DNA from: Deltaproteobacteria bacterium | GTDB lineage: Bacteria > Desulfobacterota > Desulfobacteria > Desulfobacterales > C00003060 | Assembly (NCBI GenBank): GCA_016930875.1 | Contig: JAFGFW010000158.1 | Coordinates: 1 to 41,910 of the forward strand | Reading direction: 5' to 3' | DNA: 41,910 bases | Shown here: positions 5,900-28,144 of the stretch, one piece after another | How the letters are laid out: each line of letters opens with the position of its first letter | Numbering within the stretch: position 1 is the stretch's first letter | Made by a program: the position numbers and the translations under genes | Notes under the pieces: model-generated | What the model saw: only the letters and a program-made list of their open reading frames with translations | Told to the model about the DNA's origin: nothing | Database searches by the model: none

Positions 5900-6045
5900 G
5901 GAACTCCTTGTTCCCCGATGTGTAGGACCGCCTAGTCTCGAGACGAATTCCCCCACTGGGTCGGCCACAAGACATTACAATTTAAGGCAAAACAACCACA
6001 GGAACTGGAAGTTCCCCATTTTTTCTTAGGAGAACAGCGGATTCT
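5900..6045 (-). promoter_or_regulatory. Enhancer array of P1 (three palindromes)
   Basis: Three 15-bp palindromes: GGAAC-TCCTT-GTTCC at 5900-5914, GGAAC-TGGAA-GTTCC at 6001-6015 and the weaker AGAAC-AGCGG-ATTCT at 6031-6045. Their centres lie about 88, 189 and 219 bp upstream of the predicted start, with internal steps of 101 and 30 bp. The geometry matches the other three arrays, so these are probable upstream activating sites for one activator. Confidence 0.85.
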
Positions 6046-9298: not shown

Positions 9299-10921
9299 CT
9301 AATACATGTCCTCAGCAGGCATCTGGGGCATACCCCCTTTTTTCTTTTTTGGCTTCTCCGCAACGGCAGCCTCTGTGGTCAAGAGGAGCGCAGCCACTGA
9401 TGCAGCATTTTGCAGGGCGAATCTGGCCACCTTTGTAGGGTCGATGACCCCAGTTTTTGCCAGGTCTTCGTACTTCCCAGTCTCGGCATTGAAACCAAAG
9501 GCATCTTTGCCCTCCATCACCTTTTGAACCACCACGGACCCTTCAAACCCGGCATTACCAGCAATTTGCCTGACAGGTTCTTGCAAGGCCCTTTTGATGA
9601 TTTTCACGCCCAGTTGTTCTTCACCGGGAAAGCTGGCCTTCTCAAGGGCGTTAAGTGCACGGATATAGGCCACGCCACCACCTGGGACAATACCTTCCTC
9701 CACAGCCGCACGGGTCGCGTTGAGGGCGTCCTCCACCCGGGCCTTTTTCTCCTTCATCTCGGTCTCCGTGGCAGCCCCCACATTGATCACAGCCACCCCG
9801 CCAACCAGTTTTGCCAGGCGTTCCTGGAGTTTTTCACGATCATAGTCACTGGTGGTTTCCTCGATCTGTACCCGAAGCTGCTTGACACGGCCTTCCAGGG
9901 TCTCACGACTCCCGCCACCTTCGACGATGGTGGTGTTGTCCTTGTTCACGGTGATGCGTTTTGCCGTTCCCAGATCGTCGATGGAGATATTCTCCAACTT
10001 GACACCCAGCTCCTCGCTGACTACTTGGCCGCCGGTCAGGACGGCAATGTCTTGCAACATGGCCTTGCGCCGGTCACCGAATCCCGGGGCCTTCACAGCA
10101 GCACATCTGAGCGTTCCGCGGAGTTTGTTGACCACCAGTGTGGCCAAAGCCTCTCCCTCCACATCTTCTGCGATGATCAAAAGCGGCCTTCCCATCTTGG
10201 CGACCCGTTCCAAAACAGGAAGCAGGTCCTTCATGCTGTTCAGTTTCTTCTCGTGCAGGAGTATGGATGCCTCTTCCAGGTGGACCTCCATCTTCTCAGC
10301 GTTAGTGACGAAGTATGGGCTCAGGTACCCCTTATCAAACTGCATCCCCTCAACAATCTCAAGGGTCGTCTCCATGCTTTTGGCTTCCTCCACGGTAATG
10401 ACCCCTTCTTTGCCCACCTTATCCATGGCTTCTGCAATGATATCGCCGATGGTTTTGTCGTTGTTGGCGGAAATGGTCCCCACCTGGGCGATCTCTGTCT
10501 TGTCCTTGGTCTGTTTGGACATGTTTTTGAGGTCTTCAACCACCAGATCTACGGCCTTTTCGATGCCACGTTTGATGGACATGGGATTTGACCCTGCCGC
10601 CACCAGCTTGCACCCCTCACGATAAATGGCCTGGGCGAGAATCGTTGCCGTGGTCGTGCCATCGCCTGCTACATCAGAGGTCTTGGAGGCAACTTCCTTC
10701 ACCATCTGGGCACCCAGGTTTTCGAACTTGTCCGCGAGTTCAATTTCCTTGGCAACGGTCACGCCATCCTTTGTTACCCTGGGCGATCCCCAGGACTTTT
10801 CGATGAGCACATTGCGACCCCTTGGACCCAGGGTCACCTTTACAGCATCGGCCAGCGTGTCTATGCCTTTCATCATTTTTTCCCTGGCAGTCATGCTGTA
10901 TCTGATTTCCTTGGCTGTCAT
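9299..10921 (-). CDS. groEL: Chaperonin GroEL
   Basis: A 540-residue chaperonin subunit, full family length. The ATP-binding loop [10 protein letters not shown] is at residues about 29-38 and [15 protein letters not shown] near 85-99. The apical domain and the C-terminal equatorial [18 protein letters not shown] are all present. It forms the double-ring folding chamber in the cytoplasm with GroES. The C terminus is [16 protein letters not shown], without the usual GGM repeats, as in several deltaproteobacteria. AAAGGAGG precedes the ATG. It lies 20 bp after groES. A second, broken groEL copy lies at 27779-28144. Regulation: no CIRCE element is seen upstream; before the IS insertion it may have been read from P2. 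Confidence 0.98.
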
Positions 10922-10941
10922 GGTTCAAACCTCCTTTCCAA

Positions 10942-11232
10942 TTACTTTTCGATGACCCCCAGGATATCATCTTCTCGAAGTATCAGGTGTTCCACGCCAT
11001 CGATCTTGATGTCTGTGCCAGCGTACTTCCCGAAGAGTACGCGGTCGTTTTCTTTAATGTCTAACGGAACGCGCTTTCCGTTGTCGCTCGTTTTTCCAGG
11101 TCCTACGGCGACCACTTTGCCCTCCTGGGGTTTTTCCTTGGCCGTGTCAGGGATGATGATGCCCCCTGTCGTCTTTTCTTCCTGATCAGTCCGGGTGACT
11201 ATCACCCTGTCATGTAAAGGTCTCACTTTCAT
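10942..11232 (-). CDS. groES: Co-chaperonin GroES
   Basis: A 96-residue co-chaperonin. It begins [14 protein letters not shown], has the mobile-loop region [18 protein letters not shown] at residues about 18-35, and contains the family patterns [11 protein letters not shown] and [13 protein letters not shown]. It caps the GroEL ring. GGGAGG stands before the ATG. It is the first gene of the groES-groEL pair. The 260 bp upstream up to the insertion sequence hold no CIRCE inverted repeat and no clear sigma-32 or sigma-54 promoter, so the present promoter is uncertain. Confidence 0.97.
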
Positions 11233-11406
11233 CGCAGAAGCCTCCCTCTTCCTTAGACTTTGCTACATTCCGTTTATTTTTCCTTTCAAAATTTGCTGCA
11301 GGGAAGTCGATACACCTTGTATATTGTGTAACACCAAAATAAGTTTCGCAGCTCCGGTATCTGAAACCAAGGTCCCGTCTTATTTCGTCTTTTTCACTAC
11401 TTAGGG

Positions 11407-11434
11407 TTGACATTACCGTTTTTTGTGATAAAGT
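11407..11434 (+). promoter_or_regulatory. Predicted sigma-70 promoter of the transposase
   Basis: TTGACA at 11407-11412, then 16 bp, then TAAAGT at 11429-11434. The -35 box is perfect and the -10 box matches four of six bases. It overlaps the left arm of the inverted repeat that follows. Confidence 0.5.
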
Positions 11435-11481
11435 ATTGAGTATCTTCCGGTTGGGAGATTTGCTACTTAATACTTTATCAC
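11425..11481. repeat. 18-bp inverted repeat before the transposase start
   Basis: GTGATAAAGTATTGAGTA at 11425-11442 is the complement of TACTTAATACTTTATCAC at 11464-11481 at 17 of 18 positions, with a 21-base spacer. It ends next to the AGGGG ribosome site. In transcripts that enter from outside it would form a long stem beside that site; a transcript starting inside the left arm would not. Alternatively it is a repressor site. Confidence 0.8.
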
Positions 11482-11491
11482 AGGGGCCATA

Positions 11492-13968
11492 ATGAGTACT
11501 CAGCCTTCGCCGTTGGAACTTCTGGTAGAGTTGTTTTCTCATGAAAAATGCTGGATGATCGATGATATCTCAAAGAATCTTGGTTATGCTGTTATCTCTA
11601 TTCGACGTTTCTTGAAACAGATCGGATATTTCAGAAGTTTTACCCATAATGCAAAATGGTACACACTGCATTCTATTCCCCATTTCAATAAAGACGGAAT
11701 CTGGCTGCATGAAGATATTGCCTTTTCCAAACATGGAAATTTGACACGGACAATCATTCATATGATCTACAAATCCCCTCAAGGTTGTACAGCCAAATAC
11801 CTTGCCGACAAACTCCATTATTCATGCCATGCCGTTTTGACGAACATGTACAAAGCCAGGCTGATTGATCGGGTTAAATTCACTCATGAATTCTCGTACC
11901 TTTCGATGAATGATAAAATCAATCGGCAGCAGTATAAACGTCTTGAGATACAAAGAGTCAAAAGAACCTTACAACCTTTAAGCGCAGAAACGGCAGTTCT
12001 TGTTTTAGTTGAATATATCAAAGAGCCTCAACTGTCCTTTCAGAATATTGCCGCAAGGCTCAAGCAAAATAAGAATATTACAGTATTGGCGGAAGACATT
12101 GCCCGGTTTTTCCAGCAACACGGTATAAAAAAAATGCCGGATTCATCGATCTTAACGCATTAGATACGCTAAAGACCTGTGTAGATAGGATGATTGAGGA
12201 TACCTCATCATGCTGTCTTTTGCCTGAACCTCCTATTTTATGTTTTAAGCCCATGCAAACAACTTGTTCAGATTGCCATGCTCAACTTAATGTGCTGAAG
12301 ACTCGGGTAAAATCGGCTCTTACCATGCATATTGGCCCATTTATTGCCCATGAAACGCTTCTTCACTGCAAGCGGTGCGGGGCTGAAACGGTTTATGCTT
12401 CCGATGATCTACACAAATTGGTGCCGGATCGTTGCACATTTGGTTATGATGTTTCGGTCCACGTCGGCAAAGCTCTCTTTCTCAGGCATCGCAATACCAG
12501 GGAAGTCATTGATGAGCTGGCAGCCAAAAACATCCCGATAAGTGCCAGCGAAATTGATTACCTGGGAAAAAAATTCATTGTTTACCTCGCCATAGCCCAT
12601 CGACAACGCGCTGATAAAATCAAAGCAGCCATGCAAGTAAAAGGCGGATATGTTTTGCACCTGGATGGTACCTGTGAGGGTAACAGCCCGTTATTAATGA
12701 CCGGATTGGATTCTATCTCGGAAATTGTCTTGGGCAACGTGAAACTCCCCTCTGAAAAGGCAGACAAAATCATCCCTTTTTTACGTGAGATCATTAGCAT
12801 GTTTGACTACCCTCTTGCCGTTGTTCATGACATGGGCCGGGGCATTTTGAAAGCTGTTGCAAAGGTATTGCCTGACACACCTGACTTTGTTTGTCACTTT
12901 CATTTCCTCAGAGACATTGGCAAGGACCTGTTTGGAAATGAGTACGCCATAATCAGAAACCGATTAAAAAAACACGGAATCACTTCAAGGCTACGGCAGA
13001 GAGCAAGCGCACTGAAAAAGATCATGGATGACAATCCTTGCCTGATCGATGCGTTTTACTGCCATGTTGAAAACCCATCAGGCAGGCCGGAGGCCACCGC
13101 CGGGCTCTCTCCGGCAGTTATCGCATACAGTCTTATTCAATGGGCTTTGGATGGTAAAAATCAGGGCAAAGGATATGGTTTTCCATTCGATCAACCCCTT
13201 GTCGCGTTTGCCCAAAGACTTAACGTTGTTTATGCGCAAATCAATCGGCTGAAAAATGTTCGATCAAACGATGCAAGAAATGACCACAAAGCGCTTGTCA
13301 AGGTCTCAGGCGATCTTAAGCAAGTCATTAGCGATACTGTTTTATGCCAGACGATTGCCGAAATTGAATCAAAGATCAAGGTTTTTGAGAAACTTCGGGA
13401 TGCCATGCGAATCGCTCCAAAGTCAGGATGCCAGGGGCTTAACTGTGATGGCGTGGATACGAACATCCAAACCATCGAAAAGAGGGTCAAGAAATTCCAC
13501 GACTGGCTCAGCAATCATGACAAGTTTTCAAAGAACACGGATTACGGGAAGCTCATTGCGCAATTAGACAAATACTGGGAAAAACTGTTCGCCGATCCTA
13601 TTGACATTAAAACTGCATTTGGCAAAGTTACAATACAGCCACAACGAACTAACAATATAATGGAGCGTTTTTTTAGGGACCTGAAACGGGGAAACCGTCG
13701 AAAGACAGGTAACAACTCCATGTCCAAAACACTCCAGGCGATGCTTGCAGATACGCCTTTAGTCAAAAATCTCGAAAACCGCCAATATGTAAATGTCTTG
13801 CTCGATGGCAAGGCTACTTTGGAAGAACTGTTTGGGACCATTGATAACAAAGCTGTACGAAAAGAATTACAGAATGTCAAAAAATCTGTGGATAAAGTTC
13901 CAGCCAAAATCAAAAAGATTATTGCTAAGCCGATGTTTTCTGAGATAATCCAAAATATCTTAAACTGA
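11492..13968 (+). CDS. DDE transposase made by -1 frameshifting (about 825 aa)
   Basis: Two frames, 11492-12163 and one continuing to 13968, join at an A8 run (12127-12134). Reading A-AAA-AAA in frame 0 and slipping back one base at 12133 gives one protein of about 825 residues. The N-terminal 214 residues have winged-helix-like DNA-binding segments. Next comes a zinc ribbon (CSDC, then CKRC). The catalytic region has Asp in LHLDGTCE, Asp in VVHDMGRGILKAV with CHFHFLRD after it, and Glu in NNIMERFFRDLKRG: residues 159, 214 and 492 when counted from the ATG at 12190, a DDE triad. It cuts and joins the ends of its own element. That ATG could also give a shorter 592-residue product. I do not assign the IS family. 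Confidence 0.85.
12127..12134 (+). promoter_or_regulatory. Slippery A8 site for -1 frameshift
   Basis: Eight A residues. In the upstream frame the codons are ATA AAA AAA ATG, so A-AAA-AAA is a canonical -1 slippery heptamer. The -1 frame is open from before this site through the long transposase frame without a stop. Transcriptional slippage at A8 would have the same effect. Confidence 0.8.
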
Positions 13969-14422
13969 TGCCATAATTGATGCTAAATAAGTCAAAATCC
14001 AACTGAATTTTGTGGCCATAGGTGATTTTCAACACACCATCCTTGTAAGCGGCATCCACCTTGTCTTTTTCAACCTCAGCAGGAAGGCGAATCGAGCGGG
14101 AAAAGGCCCCATAGCTTCGCTCGATACCGTGAAAGTTTTCGTCCTTTTCTTCCTTCTCCTGCTTCCGTTCCCCGCGAATGCTCAGAATGTCACCGGTGAT
14201 GGTGATGTCGATGTCTTTGGCATCCATGCCAGGAACCTCTGCCTTGACGACAACTTTGTTGGCGGTTTCCGACACATCCACGGACGGTGCCCACGCGCCT
14301 TCCGCACCGGAAGGCCTGAAAGGCCACCCCTCAAAGAACCGATCGAAGAGCCTGTCCATCTCGCGTCTGAAACCGGTCAGTTCGCTACGCCGGCTCCACG
14401 GTACCAAACTAGAATTTTTCAT
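13925..14422 (-). CDS. Small heat-shock protein Hsp20, C terminus replaced by IS sequence
   Basis: Residues 1-134 are a normal alpha-crystallin family protein: an N-terminal arm (FRREMDRLFDRFFEGW), then the domain from PSVDVSETANKVVVKAEVPG to the end strand DGVLKIT, with the usual SIRGERK and RSYGAFSRSIRLP segments. After T134 (base 14021) the frame runs 31 residues into the insertion sequence. The final strand and the C-terminal I-x-I segment that docks neighbouring subunits are lost. The protein may still bind unfolding proteins but probably assembles poorly. GGGGGTGAT precedes the ATG. Promoter P2 and its array lie directly upstream with a 69-nt leader. Confidence 0.9.
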   Translation of the reverse strand: MKNSSLVPWSRRSELTGFRREMDRLFDRFFEGWPFRPSGAEGAWAPSVDVSETANKVVVKAEVPGMDAKDIDITITGDILSIRGERKQEKEEKDENFHGIERSYGAFSRSIRLPAEVEKDKVDAAYKDGVLKITYGHKIQLDFDLFSINYGISLRYFGLSQKTSA

Positions 14423-14502: not shown

Positions 14503-14517
14503 GCAACTGCCGTGCCA
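14503..14517 (-). promoter_or_regulatory. Sigma-54 promoter P2 (hsp20)
   Basis: The minus strand reads TGGCACGGCAGTTGC, a perfect -24/-12 pair. Predicted start near 14491, giving a 69-nt leader to hsp20. Confidence 0.92.
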
Positions 14518-14524
14518 ATCAAAT

Positions 14525-14537
14525 TAACTTATTGATA
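14525..14537 (-). promoter_or_regulatory. IHF-like site of P2
   Basis: The minus strand reads TATCAATAAGTTA, a full match to WATCAANNNNTTR, centred at about -40. A second full match, TATCAAGAGCTTG, lies at 14541-14553. Bending here would bring the upstream palindromes to the polymerase. Confidence 0.7.
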
Positions 14538-14573: not shown

Positions 14574-14720
14574 GGAACTGTCAGTTCCGGTTTCCGTGGA
14601 AGAAAGTTCGATGTCCTCTCTGATAGAGCGGTGAGCGGGATTTAACCTATTGAAATAGTGAGAGATTCAACTAAGAGAACTCCAGGTTCCACTTTTGCCC
14701 ATACCAGAATTACAGATTCT
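14574..14720 (-). promoter_or_regulatory. Enhancer array of P2 (three palindromes)
   Basis: GGAAC-TGTCA-GTTCC at 14574-14588, AGAAC-TCCAG-GTTCC at 14676-14690 and the degenerate AGAAT-TACAG-ATTCT at 14706-14720. Centres lie near -90, -192 and -222; steps are 102 and 30 bp. The stretch between the first two sites shares GATAGAGCG (14622) and CTATTGAAATA (14647) at the same offsets as the P3 array, so the two arrays are duplicates. The rest of the gap up to 14786 holds no other feature I can support. Confidence 0.9.
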
Positions 14721-25146: not shown

Positions 25147-25710
25147 TTAGCCTTGGTCAACAGTCGCCAACTCGTCTTCCTTAAATGGTTCCTCTGTGGA
25201 AGGTTCGTCTTCTGGATCTGATGGAGTTCTCTCGAACTCATCTTGCTTCTCTTCACTTTCGTGTTGGGACTCATCTTTGTAGTCGTCGCCACTTCCCCCA
25301 GATGGTTCCTCTGAGGAGGATTCGTCTTCTGGATCTGGTGGGGTGTTCTCGTTCTGCTCGTCACTCTTTTCACTTTCGTCTTGGTACTCATCTTTGTAGT
25401 AGTCGCCATTTCCCCCAGATGGTTCCTCTGTGGAAGGTTCGTCTTCTGGATCTGGTGGGGTGTTCTCGTACTCCTCGTTCCTCTCCTCAGGTTCCTCTTT
25501 GTATTCCTCTTCATACTCGTTCTTCATATCCCCCTCCTTGTCGCTCCATCCACCTGAGTCCCCGTAGTCACCATCGGCTCCCCTTTCGTAGTATGACTCG
25601 GCCGTTTCCGTAATGGATACTTCGGACGCCAATACATTCGCCGAAAAGACAAACAAAGCCGATACCAGAGCACAAAGACCTGCCAAAAAAAATCTCTTGT
25701 TTTTTTTCAT
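25147..25710 (-). CDS. Secreted acidic repeat protein
   Basis: A 187-residue protein with a signal peptide (MKKNKRFFLAGLCALVSALF, cleaved near ANVLA-SE). The mature part is highly acidic and unstructured. It has two full 39-residue repeats (about 83-121 and 122-160; each starts TPPDPEDE and holds EEPSGG) and a partial third. The signal peptide and first residues (EVSITETA) resemble those of the small OB-like protein at 28495 (MKRNKRSLISGLCALV, then QVTITGTV), so it may descend from that family with its barrel replaced. Start ATG 25710 has AAAGG upstream; an earlier reading frame start would overlap promoter P3. Cation or water binding at the surface is a guess. Confidence 0.8.
   Translation of the reverse strand: MKKNKRFFLAGLCALVSALFVFSANVLASEVSITETAESYYERGADGDYGDSGGWSDKEGDMKNEYEEEYKEEPEERNEEYENTPPDPEDEPSTEEPSGGNGDYYKDEYQDESEKSDEQNENTPPDPEDESSSEEPSGGSGDDYKDESQHESEEKQDEFERTPSDPEDEPSTEEPFKEDELATVDQG
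25150..25464. repeat. 117-bp tandem repeats in the acidic protein gene
   Basis: Units at about 25348-25464 and 25231-25347, with a partial third at 25150-25230. Each full unit encodes 39 residues. The high similarity allows gain or loss of units by slippage. Confidence 0.85.
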
Positions 25711-25802
25711 GTCAATACCTTTCTGAGCAATCTTGTGGTTGGTGTCCAGGATCTTCCCGTTAAGACGCCCCCGCACCTGTGCCATAGAATTTCCCTTAAT
25801 GG

Positions 25803-25817
25803 GCAACAGTCGTGCCA
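25803..25817 (-). promoter_or_regulatory. Sigma-54 promoter P3 (acidic protein)
   Basis: The minus strand reads TGGCACGACTGTTGC, a perfect -24/-12 pair. Predicted start near 25791, giving an 81-nt leader. Confidence 0.92.
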
Positions 25818-25823
25818 CATTCT

Positions 25824-25872: not shown

Positions 25873-26020
25873 AGAACTAACAGTTCCGATCTTGATGGGA
25901 GGAAACTTGATCAGGCGGGTGATAGAGCGATGTATGTAATGCAGTCTATTGAAATAATGGAGGATTAAATGATACGAACTTTGAGTTCCGGTTTTCTTAA
26001 CTATCGGAACTCAAAGTTCT
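25873..26020 (-). promoter_or_regulatory. Enhancer array of P3 (three palindromes)
   Basis: AGAAC-TAACA-GTTCC at 25873-25887, CGAAC-TTTGA-GTTCC at 25975-25989 and GGAAC-TCAAA-GTTCT at 26006-26020. Centres lie near -89, -191 and -222; steps are 102 and 31 bp. The distal site overlaps the last codons of the activator gene. GATAGAGCG (25921) and CTATTGAAATA (25946) match the P2 array at identical offsets. The 300-bp gap between the two genes holds only this regulatory module. Confidence 0.92.
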
Positions 26021-27441
26021 TCTCTGTGGGTAAGCTTAATAGGTGATTTGAACTCTTCCTTTCTGATGCCATATTTTTTCATCAATTTATGTAGTTGACG
26101 GGCACTGATTCCGGCTGCCTCGGCAGTCTGTTTTATTTGACCCTTGTTTGCAGCCAAGGCCCCTTCCAAATAGTACCTTTCAGTGTGTTCCATAGCCGCA
26201 CGTCTCGCCTCGGCCAGGGTAAGAGAAATGTCCGCCTTGACTTGTACCTGCGAAGGATCAGAGGTAAAAAGCTCGTTTGGGAAGCCCTCAGGCGTCAGTA
26301 TTGGAGACGCTTCTAATATATAGGCACGCTCCATAAGGTTTTCCAGTTCACGGATGTTTCCGGGCCATGAGTAGTTTCTAAAGGCTTCCATCACATCTGG
26401 ATGAATGTCGCGAATCTCCTTTAGATCAAATTTGTTCAGCCTTTTAAGAATGACCTCGACAATATATGCGACGTCCTCCATTCTCTCTCTCAATGGCGGG
26501 ATTTCGAGCGGGAACACATTTAACCGATAATAGAGGTCTCTTCTAAATTGGCCGGCTTCGCACATTTTCACTAAGTCCGTATTCGTGGCCCCTATGACTC
26601 TCACATTGGCCTCTATCGTCTCTTCCCCTCCAACGCGATGAAAAGTCCCATCCTGGAGTATTTCCAAGAGCTTGATCTGTGCAGAGGGCGTAATGGTGCC
26701 GATTTCGTCAAGGAAGATCGTGCCCTCCTGGGCGATCTCAAACTTGCCCAGCTTTCTCCGGACAGCCCCTGTGAACGCACCCTTCTCGTGTCCGAACAGC
26801 TCACTTTCCAAAAGGCTGTCCGGGATCGCGCCGCAATGAACACTGATGAACGGGCCATCGTTTCGGTTACTATGCCGATAAATCAGTCTCGCTAACACGC
26901 CTTTTCCCGTTCCTGTTTCACCGCTCAGCAGGACCGTGCTTTTGGTTGGCGCCACGGATCGCACCTTATCAAAGACCGTTTTCATCAAGGAGCTTCTCGT
27001 CCGCACGATTTCGATGGAATCCTCTTGCCAAAATCTGTCCCGAAGATAATCGAGTTCGGATTCCATGATGATAGATTCATAAATACTTTCGGTGACATGT
27101 TTGACCTCATCCGGATTGATAGGATAGGTGAGATAATCGCTGGCTCCCGCCTTGACTGCCCTCACGGCTTCCCTGATCATTTCCTGAGATGACATGACAA
27201 TGATTTGAGCCGTCGGATACGCATGCCAAAATGGTTGCAATGTCGTCTTGTAGTTGTTGTCAGGCATCGAGCCGCAAAGAATTTCCACATCTATAAATAG
27301 GAATTCATACCGCTTTTTCCGAAAGATCTCCAAACAGCCACCCTGGCTGGACACCACATCGACCCTATATTCTGAGCGCATGCTAGCCCGGATCGCATTA
27401 CAGGCCGATTGGTTTTTAGAAGCAACCAGAACGCCTTTCAT
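26011..27441 (-). CDS. Sigma-54-dependent activator with a degenerate receiver domain
   Basis: A 476-residue NtrC-type protein. Residues 1-120 are a receiver fold with the phosphoacceptor position kept (Asp51 in FLFIDVE). The acidic pair near the N terminus is missing (VLVASKN) and the conserved lysine is Tyr106 (YLTYPIN). Residues 145-380 are the AAA+ domain: Walker A GETGTGKG (174-181), GAFTGA loop (221-226) for sigma-54 contact, Walker B GTIFLDEIG. A Fis-type HTH follows (IKQTAEAAGISARQLHKLMK). Start ATG 27441 has GGAGG at five bases. The gene is bracketed by arrays P3 and P4, so it is the best candidate to bind the palindromes. Phosphorylation control is doubtful. Confidence 0.93.
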   Translation of the reverse strand: MKGVLVASKNQSACNAIRASMRSEYRVDVVSSQGGCLEIFRKKRYEFLFIDVEILCGSMPDNNYKTTLQPFWHAYPTAQIIVMSSQEMIREAVRAVKAGASDYLTYPINPDEVKHVTESIYESIIMESELDYLRDRFWQEDSIEIVRTRSSLMKTVFDKVRSVAPTKSTVLLSGETGTGKGVLARLIYRHSNRNDGPFISVHCGAIPDSLLESELFGHEKGAFTGAVRRKLGKFEIAQEGTIFLDEIGTITPSAQIKLLEILQDGTFHRVGGEETIEANVRVIGATNTDLVKMCEAGQFRRDLYYRLNVFPLEIPPLRERMEDVAYIVEVILKRLNKFDLKEIRDIHPDVMEAFRNYSWPGNIRELENLMERAYILEASPILTPEGFPNELFTSDPSQVQVKADISLTLAEARRAAMEHTERYYLEGALAANKGQIKQTAEAAGISARQLHKLMKKYGIRKEEFKSPIKLTHREEL

Positions 27442-27483
27442 CCATACCTCCACGGTCATATCAATGGTGATTGAGATTAGATC

Positions 27484-27563: not shown

Positions 27564-27712
27564 AGAACCATGAGTTCTAATCATGAAAAATACCGGAATC
27601 TAGAGTTCCGGTCTACAAGTTTTCCATTTATTTCAGTCCGTTGAACAATCATAGAAGTCTTTACGGAGGGCAAAGGGTATATTTTTCTGCAAGTATCGGA
27701 ACCAGTAGTTCC
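27564..27712 (+). promoter_or_regulatory. Enhancer array of P4 (three palindromes)
   Basis: AGAAC-CATGA-GTTCT at 27564-27578, GGAAT-CTAGA-GTTCC at 27595-27609 and GGAAC-CAGTA-GTTCC at 27698-27712. Centres lie near -223, -192 and -89 of the plus-strand promoter P4; steps are 31 and 103 bp. This is the P3 layout in mirror image on the other side of the activator gene. The sites also lie 100-260 bp upstream of that gene, so autoregulation is possible. Confidence 0.92.
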
Positions 27713-27748
27713 GCTTGCCATTTTGTCTCAACACAACAAACCCTGCAA

Positions 27749-27761
27749 TATCAAATGATTA
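27749..27761 (+). promoter_or_regulatory. IHF-like site of P4
   Basis: TATCAAATGATTA, a full match to WATCAANNNNTTR, centred at -39. Confidence 0.7.
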
Positions 27762-27767
27762 TAGTTC

Positions 27768-27782
27768 TGGCACGGGTAATGC
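27768..27782 (+). promoter_or_regulatory. Sigma-54 promoter P4
   Basis: TGGCACGGGTAATGC: perfect -24 box and a -12 box with one change (ATGC for TTGC) that keeps the key GC. Predicted start near 27794, inside the groEL remnant. Confidence 0.85.
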
Positions 27783-28144
27783 TTTTGGCTGGAGACGGGA
27801 CGACCACAGCCACAGTACTTGCTCAGGCGATCTACCGGCAGGGTCTGAAGCTTGTGACAGCGGGCAGTCCTTCTGTTTAGGAGGGGGTTATAGTCGGTGG
27901 TGGCGTAGCCTTTGTTCGGTGTATTTCGGGACTGGAGAAGCTCAAGCTTGCCGGAGGCCAGCAGTTTGGTGTCAACTTCGTTCAGAGGGCCCTTGAGGAG
28001 CCGCTGAGGCAGATCGCAGAGAATGCGGGCCATGACGGCTCAGTCGTGGTCGAGGAAGTCAAAGCGGAAAAGGGAAGCTTCGGCTTCAATGCGGAGACAG
28101 AGAAGTTCGAAGAGCTGATGAAAGAGAAGGCCGGTAGAGCCTGA
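27779..28144 (+). pseudogene. groEL remnant with an in-frame stop and a large internal deletion
   Basis: The frame from 27779 reads [20 protein letters not shown] (GroEL equatorial region near residue 85), reaches TAG at 27878-27880, then continues in the same frame with [19 protein letters not shown] and [20 protein letters not shown] up to [12 protein letters not shown] and TGA. About 290 residues (most of the intermediate and apical domains) are missing at the TAG junction; the first 84 and the last part are also gone. It cannot make a chaperonin. Homology begins at the predicted start of transcription of P4. It differs enough from the intact groEL to be a separate ancient copy. It now serves as the leader of the two small genes downstream. 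Confidence 0.88.

Follow-up and report, generated by a model that had tools for sequence, protein, structure and literature searches.

Insertion of a transposable element, with a probable adjoining deletion, in a candidate hsp20-groES-groEL operon of an uncultured Desulfobacterota genome

How did a small heat-shock gene come to end inside a transposable element, and did the chaperonin genes on the other side of that element once belong to the same operon? Both questions are raised by a 41,910-nucleotide stretch of DNA from an uncultured member of the Desulfobacterota, which is called the window below. The earlier note on this DNA had proposed that an insertion sequence cut the tail of hsp20 and split an operon of hsp20, groES and groEL.

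The truncated hsp20 and the insertion element

The features at the right junction of the element are the following.

14022..14422, minus strand: native part of hsp20, 133 complete codons plus two bases
13925..14021, minus strand: tail of the truncated Hsp20, 31 element-encoded residues (135-165) and the stop codon, reading through the right inverted repeat
13999..14021, minus strand: right terminal inverted repeat of the element, intact, CCAACTGAATTTTGTGGCCATAG, outer base 14021

The hsp20 reading frame (13925-14422, minus strand, start at 14422) encodes 165 amino acids. An alpha-crystallin domain was identified by Pfam HSP20 (PF00011) at residues 50-135 (E=3.6e-22; 78.8 bits against a cut-off of 20.8), the match covering only positions 2-85 of the 102 in the profile. 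The best relatives align to the protein over residues 1-134/135, and residues 1-134 share 70-77% identity with the Hsp20 proteins of genomes G001 and G007. Past the junction these relatives continue with PKTKEAAVKKIEVK or similar and end in PKTK...KKIEVK or KKIEIK. This ending is absent from the window protein, which has thus lost the I-x-V/I motif together with the last part of the alpha-crystallin domain; the motif is kept as KIEV/KIEI in G001, G007 and G020, whereas the window Hsp20 has element-encoded residues in its place. Its 31-residue tail has no counterpart among the relatives compared, none of which naturally bears such a tail. A family match to about residue 134, followed by 31 residues of insertion sequence and the loss of the C-terminal I-x-I segment, was what the earlier note had described, and the description is borne out, the element ending at base 14021. 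The last base of codon 134 belongs to the element, which leaves 133 codons wholly native. The native part shows no clear decay, as its 10 private amino-acid changes are only a modest excess over the 5 in G007. Oligomerisation of the protein is probably impaired.

The ends of this type of element are defined by identical multi-copy relatives, which possess 23-bp repeats of the type CTATGGCAGCAAATGACGGTTGG (CTATG...GTTGG) and 8-bp target duplications (CTATTTAG, AAAAAAAC, AGTTTTCA, AATTATTG and CAATTTTC, carried by copies in G357 and G348 and by loci L101, L119 and L124). The right repeat in the window is letter for letter the same-end repeat of two G348 copies (L111, L122), and scores 28.9 with a profile built from the repeats of 14 relatives, the best score elsewhere in the window being 7.2. 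Since it ends exactly where the Hsp20 homology stops, the right junction is fixed at 14021/14022. The remainder of the element is composed as follows.

11407..14021, plus strand: insertion element, assignable body; left end missing, the true left boundary lying between 11233 and 11407
11407..11434, plus strand: sigma-70-like promoter of the element, TTGACA-16-TAAAGT, 10/12 matches, with TG, just before ORF1
11424..11482, plus strand: hairpin just upstream of the transposase start, 19-nt arms, 95% complementary
11492..12163, plus strand: transposase ORF1, 223 aa, weak helix-turn-helix matches
12126..12133, plus strand: A8 run at the ORF1/ORF2 overlap, in the same place in L066, L099, L100 and L107
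12190..13968, plus strand: transposase ORF2, 592 aa, distant from IS256/MULE

Sigma-70-like sites around the element promoter occur at chance level, and the one at 11407..11434 is distinguished by its place before ORF1. The hairpin folds as RNA with -32.6 kcal/mol (z -5.7), and similar arms precede ORF1 in the closest relative of the element, L066. A role as terminator against read-through was rejected, as neither strand has a T run after it; more likely the hairpin guards translation of the transposase. The ORF2 frame is open from 12073, and in some relatives ORF1 and ORF2 form one open frame of 830-902 codons. Because the two ORFs overlap at the A8 run, and the run is kept in the four relatives examined, it is likely to be a site of frameshift or slippage.

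No curated IS family was matched by the element at its cut-off, and PADLOC found nothing in its ORFs. ORF2 reaches 26.4 bits with the NCBIfam IS256 model (cut-off 150), which places it outside IS256, and 16 bits with Pfam MULE (cut-off 27.6). Typical IS256 elements are shorter than about 2.7 kb. The element resembles the IS256/MULE type in its DDE-type transposase region with weak matches to both, in its family inverted repeats and in the 8-bp target duplication of its family, but differs in lying far under the curated cut-offs, in its length of about 2.7 kb with an ORF1/ORF2 pair and A8 run, and, for the window copy, in lacking a left end. Relatives of the transposase at E<=1e-100 are present in 23 of the 389 genomes of the order, the source genome included, where the element occurs once and has no fragments at the ends of other contigs. 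The order thus contains a group of transposons of about 2.7 kb that share CTATG...GTTGG repeats and 8-bp duplications, with a hairpin upstream of ORF1 and a frameshift-like A8 run.

Gene order in relatives and the lost left end

The genes beyond the element, and the promoter region before hsp20, include the features below; G001 is a genome of the same genus.

9299..10921, minus strand: groEL, accessory copy, intact; 540 aa, TIGR02348 858 bits
10942..11232, minus strand: groES, accessory type (MKVRPL...), intact; above the NCBIfam GroES cut-off, 83% identical to the hsp20-linked groES of G001
11233..11406, no strand: unassigned segment between groES and the element promoter, holding the groES leader and the probable deletion junction
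14503..14517, minus strand: sigma-54-type -24/-12 site, TGGCACGGCAGTTGC, exact match, taken as the promoter P2 of the earlier note
14525..14537, minus strand: IHF-like site, TATCAATAAGTTA read by eye against WATCAANNNNTTR, between enhancers and promoter
14574..14588, no strand: proximal enhancer-like site GGAAC-N5-GTTCC, 56 nt from the -24 element
14676..14690, no strand: second enhancer-like site, 102 nt further upstream
14706..14720, no strand: third enhancer-like site, 30 nt further, with two mismatches

Both chaperonin genes lie on the minus strand (9299-11232), the same strand as hsp20, as had been claimed. The window groEL is 85% identical to the linked copy of G001, against 76% to the housekeeping copy of its own genome. 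In G001 the genes FmdB-groEL-groES-hsp20-enhancer array-acyltransferase are found on one strand in the order and orientation of the window (contig C1: FmdB 838-656; groEL 2606-987, 85%; groES 2913-2629, 83%; hsp20 3458-3063, 70%), the acyltransferase being 62.7% and 67.0% identical over two stretches. There hsp20 possesses its whole tail, ends 95 nt before groES, and lies behind a sigma-54-like promoter that has the same enhancer sites. Arrays of this kind also stand before hsp20 in G020 and G007; the sigma-54 site is the same in G020 (contig C253) and reads TGGCACAACTATTGC in G001. The proposal that hsp20 and groES-groEL formed an operon under P2 before the insertion is thus backed by the gene order and sigma-54-like site of G001, in which an uninterrupted arrangement behind the same array is found together with conserved outer neighbours. 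This arrangement suggests that the three genes may be transcribed in G001 as an operon from the sigma-54 site.

Linkage of hsp20 to groES, groEL and one promoter is found in G001 but not in G020 or G007, where other genes follow the array and hsp20. The hsp20 of G020 is 69.7% identical (C-terminal half only) and has beside it a mechanosensitive-channel gene up to 95% identical; that of G007 is 77% identical. Of the 29 groES genes of the order closest to that of the window, only the one in G001 has hsp20 upstream; that no more than one relative shows the uninterrupted order counts against the operon model. The operon is accordingly a feature of part of the genus, since the linkage of G001 is not shared by G020, G007 or the other groES relatives. 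Unlinked genes in relatives, which had been named as grounds for refutation, occur in two genomes while the linked order stands in a third.

A feature beyond the earlier account is the absence of both the left repeat and a target duplication. The right repeat is exact, but the best candidate for a left inverted repeat in 10900-11500 reaches 2.0 bits, against 27-36 in the 14 relatives of the profile. The left side holds no second copy of the eight bases beside the right end (GTGATTTT). In relatives with a recognisable hairpin arm, the 3' arm sits 207-258 nt inside the left end; at this spacing a complete left end would fall inside or right beside groES. Nor was an hsp20 tail detected above shuffles on the groES side (three frames and a DNA search); a VVKKTK-stop reading at about 11375-11396, tried as a remnant of that tail, lies within the shuffle range. 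No relatives of 11233-11420 were found in the genus, and none of 11233-11406 among the loci compared. As the groES side lacks the left repeat, the target duplication and the hsp20 tail, the junction between 11233 and 11407 probably includes a deletion, and the simplest account would be one deletion that took the left end, the hsp20 tail and most of the old spacer. Having lost its left repeat, the element should no longer be mobile, so that the disrupted state should be fixed against reversion by excision.

It is highly probable that the element entered hsp20 of an ancestral hsp20-groES-groEL operon and that a deletion occurred on the groES side. Transcription of the ancestral operon would have started at a sigma-54 promoter, with activation through the three enhancer sites upstream of it. 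A two-ORF IS256/MULE-like element would then have entered codon 134 of hsp20, and a deletion, later than or simultaneous with the insertion, would have removed the left repeat and one copy of any target duplication, along with the last ~17 hsp20 codons and most or all of the hsp20-groES spacer; this order of events is what we infer. The resulting Hsp20 would keep an intact N-terminus and most of its alpha-crystallin domain, and would carry an unrelated 31-residue tail lacking I-x-I/V. An operon split by insertion, as first proposed, agrees with G001 and with the element end, but the insertion is not a clean one, the left end, the duplication and the hsp20 tail being gone.

Three other explanations were weighed. 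A simple complete insertion, of a whole element whose left repeat has diverged past recognition and which can still move, is very unlikely. If a weak repeat-like stretch at 11326 (score 2.0) is taken as the left end, the element measures 2,696 bp, which fits the family range of 2,643-2,929 bp, and both transposase ORFs are open. That score, however, lies below the chance level of the rest of the window (7.2), the eight bases outside 11326 (TGTATATT) differ from the right flank, and the distance from the end to the ORF1 start would be 166 nt, where most relatives whose ORF1 is separate have 208-278 nt (185 nt in L068 and 419 in L118); the surviving hsp20 tail that such an insertion predicts on the groES side is absent. 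Slightly less probable still is recombination between two element copies that joined an hsp20 fragment to an unrelated groES-groEL, the genes never having formed one operon in this lineage. A rearrangement would also be expected to leave no target duplication, left end or hsp20 tail, and hsp20 is unlinked from groES in G020 and G007, but G001 has the same hsp20, groES, groEL and both outer neighbours in the same order, and the genome holds no second copy of the element. Least probable of all is an assembly chimera, two contigs falsely joined at the element: the source genome is a 3.68-Mb draft of 212 contigs with 3.1% contamination (the window being contig 158), but the element is a single copy without fragments at other contig ends, so that assembly through it is not ambiguous, and a false join that recreated the G001 gene order would be very unlikely.

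Control of groES-groEL and the wider regulon

Under the preferred explanation, insertion followed or accompanied by deletion, groES and groEL are intact but lie about 3.3 kb from the promoter instead of the ~0.65 kb of G001, with convergent transposase genes in between. Upstream of groES, neither a CIRCE element (up to 5 mismatches allowed) nor a sigma-32-like site above shuffles was found, in agreement with what had been claimed; nor was any sigma-70-like site found on the minus strand between the element promoter and groES, or any sigma-54 site between groES and the element. From this distance and the absence of a replacement site, groES-groEL appears to be cut off from its promoter, and has likely lost sigma-54/enhancer control; read-through or an unrecognised promoter could serve it. 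Several further Hsp20 genes are present elsewhere in the source genome, as is a housekeeping groES-groEL on contig 19, so that the loss is probably buffered and viability probably not at stake. In housekeeping loci across the genus (L062 in the source genome, G000:C19; L040-L058 in other members), a conserved GAAAGGGGGTGNCA-like block lies some 80-120 nt upstream of groES, without CIRCE.

Four exact matches to the enhancer/sigma-54 pattern are present in the genome, all within the window, and none to the reversed pattern. Each of the four arrays contains three GGAAC-N5-GTTCC sites (5900-6031; 14574-14706, array B; 25873-26006, array C; 27564-27698, array D), with a rigid spacing of about 102 and 30 nt and then 54-56 nt to the sigma-54 site, and in three of them an IHF-like site was seen by eye between enhancers and promoter. 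The same arrangement is distributed amongst other Desulfobacterota (L127, L134, L136, L141), mostly before small unknown proteins. Array C is followed by a gene for a small acidic, secreted-looking protein (25147-25818) with no Pfam match, a homologue of which stands behind the same array in L141. The gene at 26011-27459, which separates arrays C and D, encodes a sigma-54 activator of the response-regulator type with receiver, AAA+ and Fis-type HTH parts. The activator is 86-87% identical in G020 and L141 and is the obvious candidate for binding and regulating the arrays.

Behind array D (27564-27782), intact groES-groEL is found in G020 (L087) and in G014, whose contig coordinates agree with those of the genome that carries L141 (Desulfobacterales MAG CSMAG_1531, DAOVOU010000096). 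The window retains there only a relic.

27786-27871 and 27875-28122: groEL relic behind array D, two pieces left after two deletions

One deletion took groES plus the start of groEL, the other the middle of groEL. With this chaperonin operon deleted to a relic and the other split by the element, both array-linked chaperonin operons look uncoupled, and genomes of the genus seem to keep different array-linked groES-groEL copies.

Known systems and meaning

Transposon-disrupted operons commonly have one gene truncated and the downstream genes parted from their promoter. The window operon resembles them in both respects, but differs in that the left end of the element is also lost, which fixes the state. 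No case of a transposon-split hsp20-groESL was met in a limited literature search. The accessory groESL3 operon of Bradyrhizobium is controlled by NifA and sigma-54. It is described as co-regulated with nitrogen fixation genes (PMC6604987, citing Fischer et al.). Both cases have an extra groESL in a sigma-54/enhancer regulon and a separate housekeeping copy; unlike groESL3, the window has three GGAAC-N5-GTTCC sites rather than NifA sites, places hsp20 first and belongs to an uncultured Desulfobacterota. In a non-exhaustive check, the Desulfovibrio vulgaris sigma-54 regulome (PMC4641369) gave no hsp20 and no GGAAC or GTTCC, and a survey of sigma-54 regulons across bacteria (PMC12316311) gave no match for hsp20, although the latter does name GroEL, GroES and IbpA as predicted targets of sigma-54, with enrichment in Planctomycetota and Bacteroidota.

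The locus amounts to a natural knock-out in which a small-heat-shock/chaperonin operon has also been un-wired, and it can be compared with an uninterrupted relative. Its gene order suggests that an operon of holdase (Hsp20) and foldase (GroESL) exists behind a sigma-54-type promoter in uncultured Desulfobacterota. As a disrupted operon it is well supported as an ordinary case, the surrounding regulon being the more original subject and the part of most concern to specialists. It may be, as a tentative and rather doubtful proposal, that an undescribed sigma-54/three-enhancer stress regulon lost the accessory chaperonins of this lineage by two separate events: the groESL of array D was deleted to a relic, and that of array B was cut off by the element. 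If so, the sole chaperone left under the control of the arrays would be Hsp20, in its truncated form with a tail derived from the element.
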